NCBI GenBank assembly: GCA_024636705.1
Contig: JAGXGN010000169.1
Coordinates: 1-33,866 of the forward strand
Origin: Halomonas sp.
GTDB lineage: Bacteria; Pseudomonadota; Gammaproteobacteria; Pseudomonadales; Halomonadaceae
Reading direction: 5' to 3'
Length of the DNA: 33,866 nucleotides
The notes under the pieces were generated by a model, which made no database searches, was not told the origin of the DNA, and saw nothing but the letters and a program-made list of their open reading frames with translations. A program made the translations under genes and the position numbers. Below are positions 32,355 to 33,866 of the stretch, piece after piece; positions within the stretch are counted from its first letter, which is position 1; each line of letters starts with the position of its first letter.

Positions 32355-33809
32355 TCAGGACTGGGTGCCGCCGATCGTCAGCTCGTCTAGTTTGAGGGTC
32401 GGCTGGCCGACACCCACCGGCACGCCCTGGCCTTCCTTGCCGCAGACGCCGATCCCGGTATCCAGCGCCATGTCATGGCCGATCATGGAGACACGACCCA
32501 TGGCCTCGGGTCCATTGCCGATCAGGGTCGCACCCTTGACCGGCGTGGTGATGCGACCGTCCTCGATCAGGTAGGCCTCGCTTGCCGAGAAGACGAACTT
32601 CCCCGAGGTGATATCCACCTGGCCCCCGCCGAAGCTCACCGCATAGATGCCGCGCTTGACACTGCGCAGGATATCCTCGGGGTCATCCTGTCCGGCCAGC
32701 ATGTAGGTATTGGTCATTCGCGGCATCGGCAGGTGGGCGAAGGACTCGCGGCGGGCATTGCCGGTCGGGGCCATGCCCATCAGGCGTGCATTGAGCTTGT
32801 CCTGCATGTAGCCGGTGAGGATGCCGTCCTCGATCAAGGGGGTGTACTGGCCCAGGGTACCTTCATCATCGACAGTCATCGAACCACGCCGATCGGCCAG
32901 GGTCGCATCGTCGACCACGGTGACGCCGGGAGAGGCCACCCGCTTCCCCATGCGTCCGGCGAAGGCCGAGCTGCCCTTGCGGTTGAAGTCCCCTTCCAGG
33001 CCGTGGCCTACCGCTTCGTGCAGCAGGATGCCCGGCCACCCCGGGCCCAGCACGACCGGTAACTGGCCGGCCGGTGCATCGACGGCCTCGAGATTGACCA
33101 ACGCCTGGCGAACCGCCTCCTTGGCATAGCGCTCGGCGACCTGCTCGTCGCGAAGACGCGCCATGGAATAGCGTCCGCCACCACCGGCACTACCGCGTTC
33201 ACGCCGGCCATTCCTGACCACGATGACGCTGACATTGAAACGCACCAGCGGGCGGATATCCGCCGCCAGGGTGCCATCGCTGGCCCGCACCAGCACCAGT
33301 TCATGGACACCGCTGAGCGAGGCACTCACCTGGGATACCGCGGGATCGGCCGCCCGCGCGGCCCGATCGGCCTGCTTGAGCATGGTGATCTTGTCCTCGG
33401 CGGAGAGCCCGGAGAGTGGATCCACCCCGGCATAGGCGGCAGGGTGGCGTGCCGCGACTCTCGTAGCGGACTTGAGCTGGCTACCACTTCGCACGATCCC
33501 GGCGGCCGTGCGTCCTGTCTCGGCCAGGGCCTCGGGCGATATCTGGTTGGAATAGGCGAAGCCCGTCTTCTCACCGGCCATGGAGCGAACCCCCACACCC
33601 CCGTCGATGTTGTAGCTGGCCTCCTTGACCTCGCCATCCTCGAGTACCCATCCCTCCTGCCAGGTGCGCTGGAAATAGAGATCGGCATAATCGATGCCGC
33701 GTCCCAGGGCATGGCCCAGCCCCACGTCCAGGGTGTCGAGGTCCAGTCCACCGGGAGCGAGCAGGGTCTCGGCGACGTCATCGAGAAGAAAGTCTTGGCG
33801 TGATGTCAT
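32355..33809 (-). CDS. tldD: Metalloprotease TldD
   Basis: 484 aa; [67 protein letters not shown] (HExxxH metal site). Confidence 0.97.
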
Positions 33810-33835
33810 TCGGCATTTTCCACAGAGATCTGCGG

Positions 33836-33866
33836 CTGTCTCTTATACACATCTGACGCTGCCGAC
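33836..33866. other. Illumina Nextera (Tn5 mosaic end plus adapter) sequence, non-genomic
   Basis: CTGTCTCTTATACACATCT followed by GACGCTGCCGAC, the reverse complement of the Nextera Read 1 transposase adapter, exactly at the end of the window. Confidence 0.97.

Follow-up and report, generated by a model that had tools for sequence, protein, structure and literature searches.

Untrimmed Nextera library adapter at the contig end upstream of tldD in a Halomonas draft genome

The window analyzed here, a stretch of 33,866 nucleotides, is the entire contig C67 (bases 1-33866) of a Halomonas sp. draft genome, so that the window edge is the contig end. The draft comprises 180 contigs and 2,605,834 bases and is 79.9% complete and 1.7% contaminated. 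The right-hand end of the contig carries the following features.

32355-33809, minus strand: tldD (PmbA/TldD metallopeptidase), complete (Pfam PF19289, PF19290 and PF01523).
33806-33835, minus strand: last genomic stretch, the 3' end of yhdP (...PQISVENAE, stop), identified from the translation, contig C113 and relatives.
33836-33854, plus strand: synthetic Tn5 mosaic end, 19 bp, CTGTCTCTTATACACATCT, an exact match of which the first C is possibly genomic.
33855-33866, plus strand: Nextera Read-1 adapter in reverse complement, 12 of 14 nucleotides, GACGCTGCCGAC, assigned from the 31-nucleotide adapter match.

The tldD reading frame encodes a protein of 484 amino acids with PmbA/TldD domains 1-3 as judged by Pfam. 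Its start codon occupies 33807-33809 on the minus strand, and the gene is undamaged by the adapter. The TGA stop codon of yhdP overlaps this start codon (ATGA), giving the gene order yhdP-tldD, and the 3' end of yhdP ahead of tldD is conserved in relatives.

The final letters of the window, at 33836-33866, are CTGTCTCTTATACACATCTGACGCTGCCGAC. All 31 are identical to the Illumina Nextera Read-1 transposase adapter in reverse complement (CTGTCTCTTATACACATCTGACGCTGCCGACGA), of which they represent bases 1-31 of 33. Specifically, they consist of the 19-bp Tn5 mosaic end, present as a single copy in the window with no mismatches, followed by 12 of the 14 Read-1 bases. The last two nucleotides (GA) of the full adapter are missing since the contig stops; the same Read-1 tail is found on other contig ends of the draft, where it reaches the full 33 nucleotides. 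PMC3046479 lists the sequence of the mosaic end. In PMC6460022 the reverse-complemented Read-1 adapter serves verbatim as a trimming target, and its Read-2 counterpart is likewise a standard one. An earlier note, made from the letters of this DNA, had described the last 31 nucleotides as mosaic end plus Read 1 adapter at an untrimmed contig end; the sequence and coordinates proved exact, and the window does span the whole contig.

The true continuation of the chromosome is found on another contig of the draft, C113. The end of C113 (13445-13486) overlaps window positions 33795-33836 over 42 bases, of which 39 are identical. C113 encodes a YhdP protein (PF13116) ending in PQISVESAE, with the TGA stop codon again overlapping the tldD ATG, and alignments of the sequence past the overlap with relatives extend over 0.6-1.5 kb, with an identity of roughly 70-77%. 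Ordinary chromosome thus lies beyond the junction in C113 and in relatives, and C113 has no insertion at the site. The window sequence departs from C113 and from all relatives exactly at the junction. Because the first base of the adapter (C, 33836) is also the C expected in the genome from C113 and the relatives, the boundary lies at either 33835 or 33836. The end of genomic DNA that the earlier note had placed at about 33835 therefore stands, with one ambiguous base. Its distance of 26 nucleotides from the tldD start also holds (33810-33835), with the refinement that these nucleotides are coding, as the 3' end of yhdP. The three differences in the 42-base overlap suggest that C67 and C113 may represent slightly different strains present in the sample; the draft would then be a strain mixture. 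Such a slight strain difference could be a cause of the assembly break near tldD.

The earlier note had proposed looking for the same sequence at other contig ends, and this search was positive. Exact copies of the mosaic end occur on 23 contigs, one on each, all within 48 nucleotides of a contig end and pointing outward. A 24th copy, with one mismatch, is found where C130 begins, and Read-2 adapter follows it. About 6% of the contig ends (23-24 of 360) therefore carry adapter, and the non-genomic tails measure 19-48 nucleotides. The Read-1 adapter is entered by at least 2 nucleotides in 10 of the 23 exact copies, C67 included, and the Read-2 adapter by at least 1 nucleotide in six; in the remaining seven the contig stops exactly at the mosaic end. 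The full 34 nucleotides of the Read-2 adapter are present in three tails (C30, C60 and C159), which extend identically into GCTCA. The longest tail, on C159, continues with GCTCATGA and then ATCTCG, which we take to be the start of the flow-cell adapter. GCTCATGA is the i7 index N714 (PMC7589761). On C59, three bases (CTC) follow the Read-1 adapter; they would fit the i5 index S505 (GTAAGGAG, reverse complement CTCCTTAC), three bases being too few to say. The TruSeq adapter core is absent from the draft, leaving Nextera as the only adapter type seen.

The AGNTYWRANCT preference of Tn5 for its targets is weak and palindromic. In the genomic flanks of the 23 mosaic ends, G is found at position 1 in 14 (binomial P ~0.004 at the base composition of the window) and C at position 9, also in 14. 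These two positions were picked, after all positions in the 23 flanks had been viewed, because they mark the two termini of the known 9-bp target. An independent check was provided by 144 junctions on public contigs with the same adapter, among the matches listed, in which G occupies position 1 in 56 (P = 4e-4) and C position 9 in 63 (P = 1e-6). The AGNTYWRANCT target preference is as given in PMC3046479. The bias in the flanking bases supports fragment ends made by a transposase and agrees with tagmentation in vitro.

The mosaic end is derived from the ends of Tn5, and the flanks share a Tn5-like target bias. Engineered mini-Tn5 transposons terminate in it as well, and it is the point at which many contigs of the draft break. 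We therefore considered a real Tn5-derived transposon, such as a mini-transposon used for mutagenesis, lying upstream of tldD, with the contig broken at the repeated transposon. This is very improbable, and a real insertion was rejected, as the earlier note had also concluded. Beyond the mosaic end lie Read-1 or Read-2 adapter and a sample index rather than transposon, so that the mosaic end leads into two distinct sequences, and no IS50 or transposon sequence was found after it. C113 crosses the site uninterrupted, as do the relatives, and it would be implausible for a single draft to hold 23 insertions that all coincide precisely with contig ends. A search for the Tn5 outside end yielded no wild-type copy; the only match was the mosaic end, at three mismatches. 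The Tn5 transposase dimerization domain (PF02281) had no match in the draft, which is ~80% complete, or in the control genomes; with no positive control behind this search, the result does not prove that the domain is lacking. In contrast to a Tn5/IS50 transposon, no transposon body or wild-type end was found at the end of C67, and its mosaic end was attached in vitro and not inside a cell. That the strain had been deliberately mutagenized with a mosaic-end transposon is even harder to credit. A natural genomic sequence resembling the adapter by chance is a negligible prospect and is refuted by the exact match over 31 nucleotides, where no match is expected in the window even for the mosaic-end 19-mer with up to 3 mismatches, by the 23 copies at contig ends, by the point of divergence from C113 and every relative, which falls precisely on the junction, and by the absence of the mosaic end from all 89 other genomes of the genus that were searched.

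We regard it as virtually certain that the end of C67 is untrimmed Nextera library adapter retained at an assembly contig end, a technical artefact and not a biological feature. This reading is borne out by the identity of the adapter, its confinement to contig ends, the presence of both adapter types and an index, the continuation of the chromosome elsewhere in the draft and the Tn5 bias of the flanks; no evidence against it was found in this analysis. As to the cause, we infer read-through of a short insert combined with missing trimming. During library preparation, Tn5 transposase loaded with mosaic-end oligonucleotides would have cleaved the chromosome immediately upstream of tldD and attached the Read-1 adapter at the cut. 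If the insert fell short of the read length, the read would have passed from genomic DNA into the adapter, which was probably left in place before assembly. The assembler may then have retained the junction of genome and adapter as a dead-end path, so that the contig would end within the adapter.

Retained adapter of this kind is not novel. Adapter contamination of public assemblies is a target of the NCBI contamination screens (PMC10246020), and C67 is an ordinary case that does not differ from it. At least 119 stretches with the same adapter were found in public genome contigs, nearly all at the very end; among the matches listed, all lie within ~100 nucleotides of the contig end, with the exception of six loci more than 100 nucleotides from the end of the stretch. 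Most of the adapter-bearing records listed are metagenome-assembled genomes, and some are from isolates. A literature search for surveys of Nextera adapters in public genomes returned general contamination papers only. In public contigs L081, L065, L117, L126 and L141 the Nextera adapter is located ~170-500 nucleotides from the end, possibly inside a chimeric contig and not at its tip. In two IMG/VR viral contigs (L180:11399-11427 and L181:14330-14358), the Read-2 adapter, GCTCATGA and the flow-cell adapter occur close to the end of the stretch. The shared index says nothing of a common origin, because one index is reused across laboratories.

For the locus itself, the retained adapter matters only as data hygiene, and the sequence should be trimmed before annotation. 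Left in place, an adapter can cause false matches between unrelated contigs, and a retained index marks the library from which an assembly originated. Untrimmed adapter can also be translated by gene callers. At this contig end the adapter is in frame with the tail of yhdP over 33806-33866 on the minus strand (19 protein letters). Ten adapter-derived residues are here joined to the YhdP tail, and a partial protein derived from adapter could be reported at these positions by a gene caller that accepts genes without closed ends.
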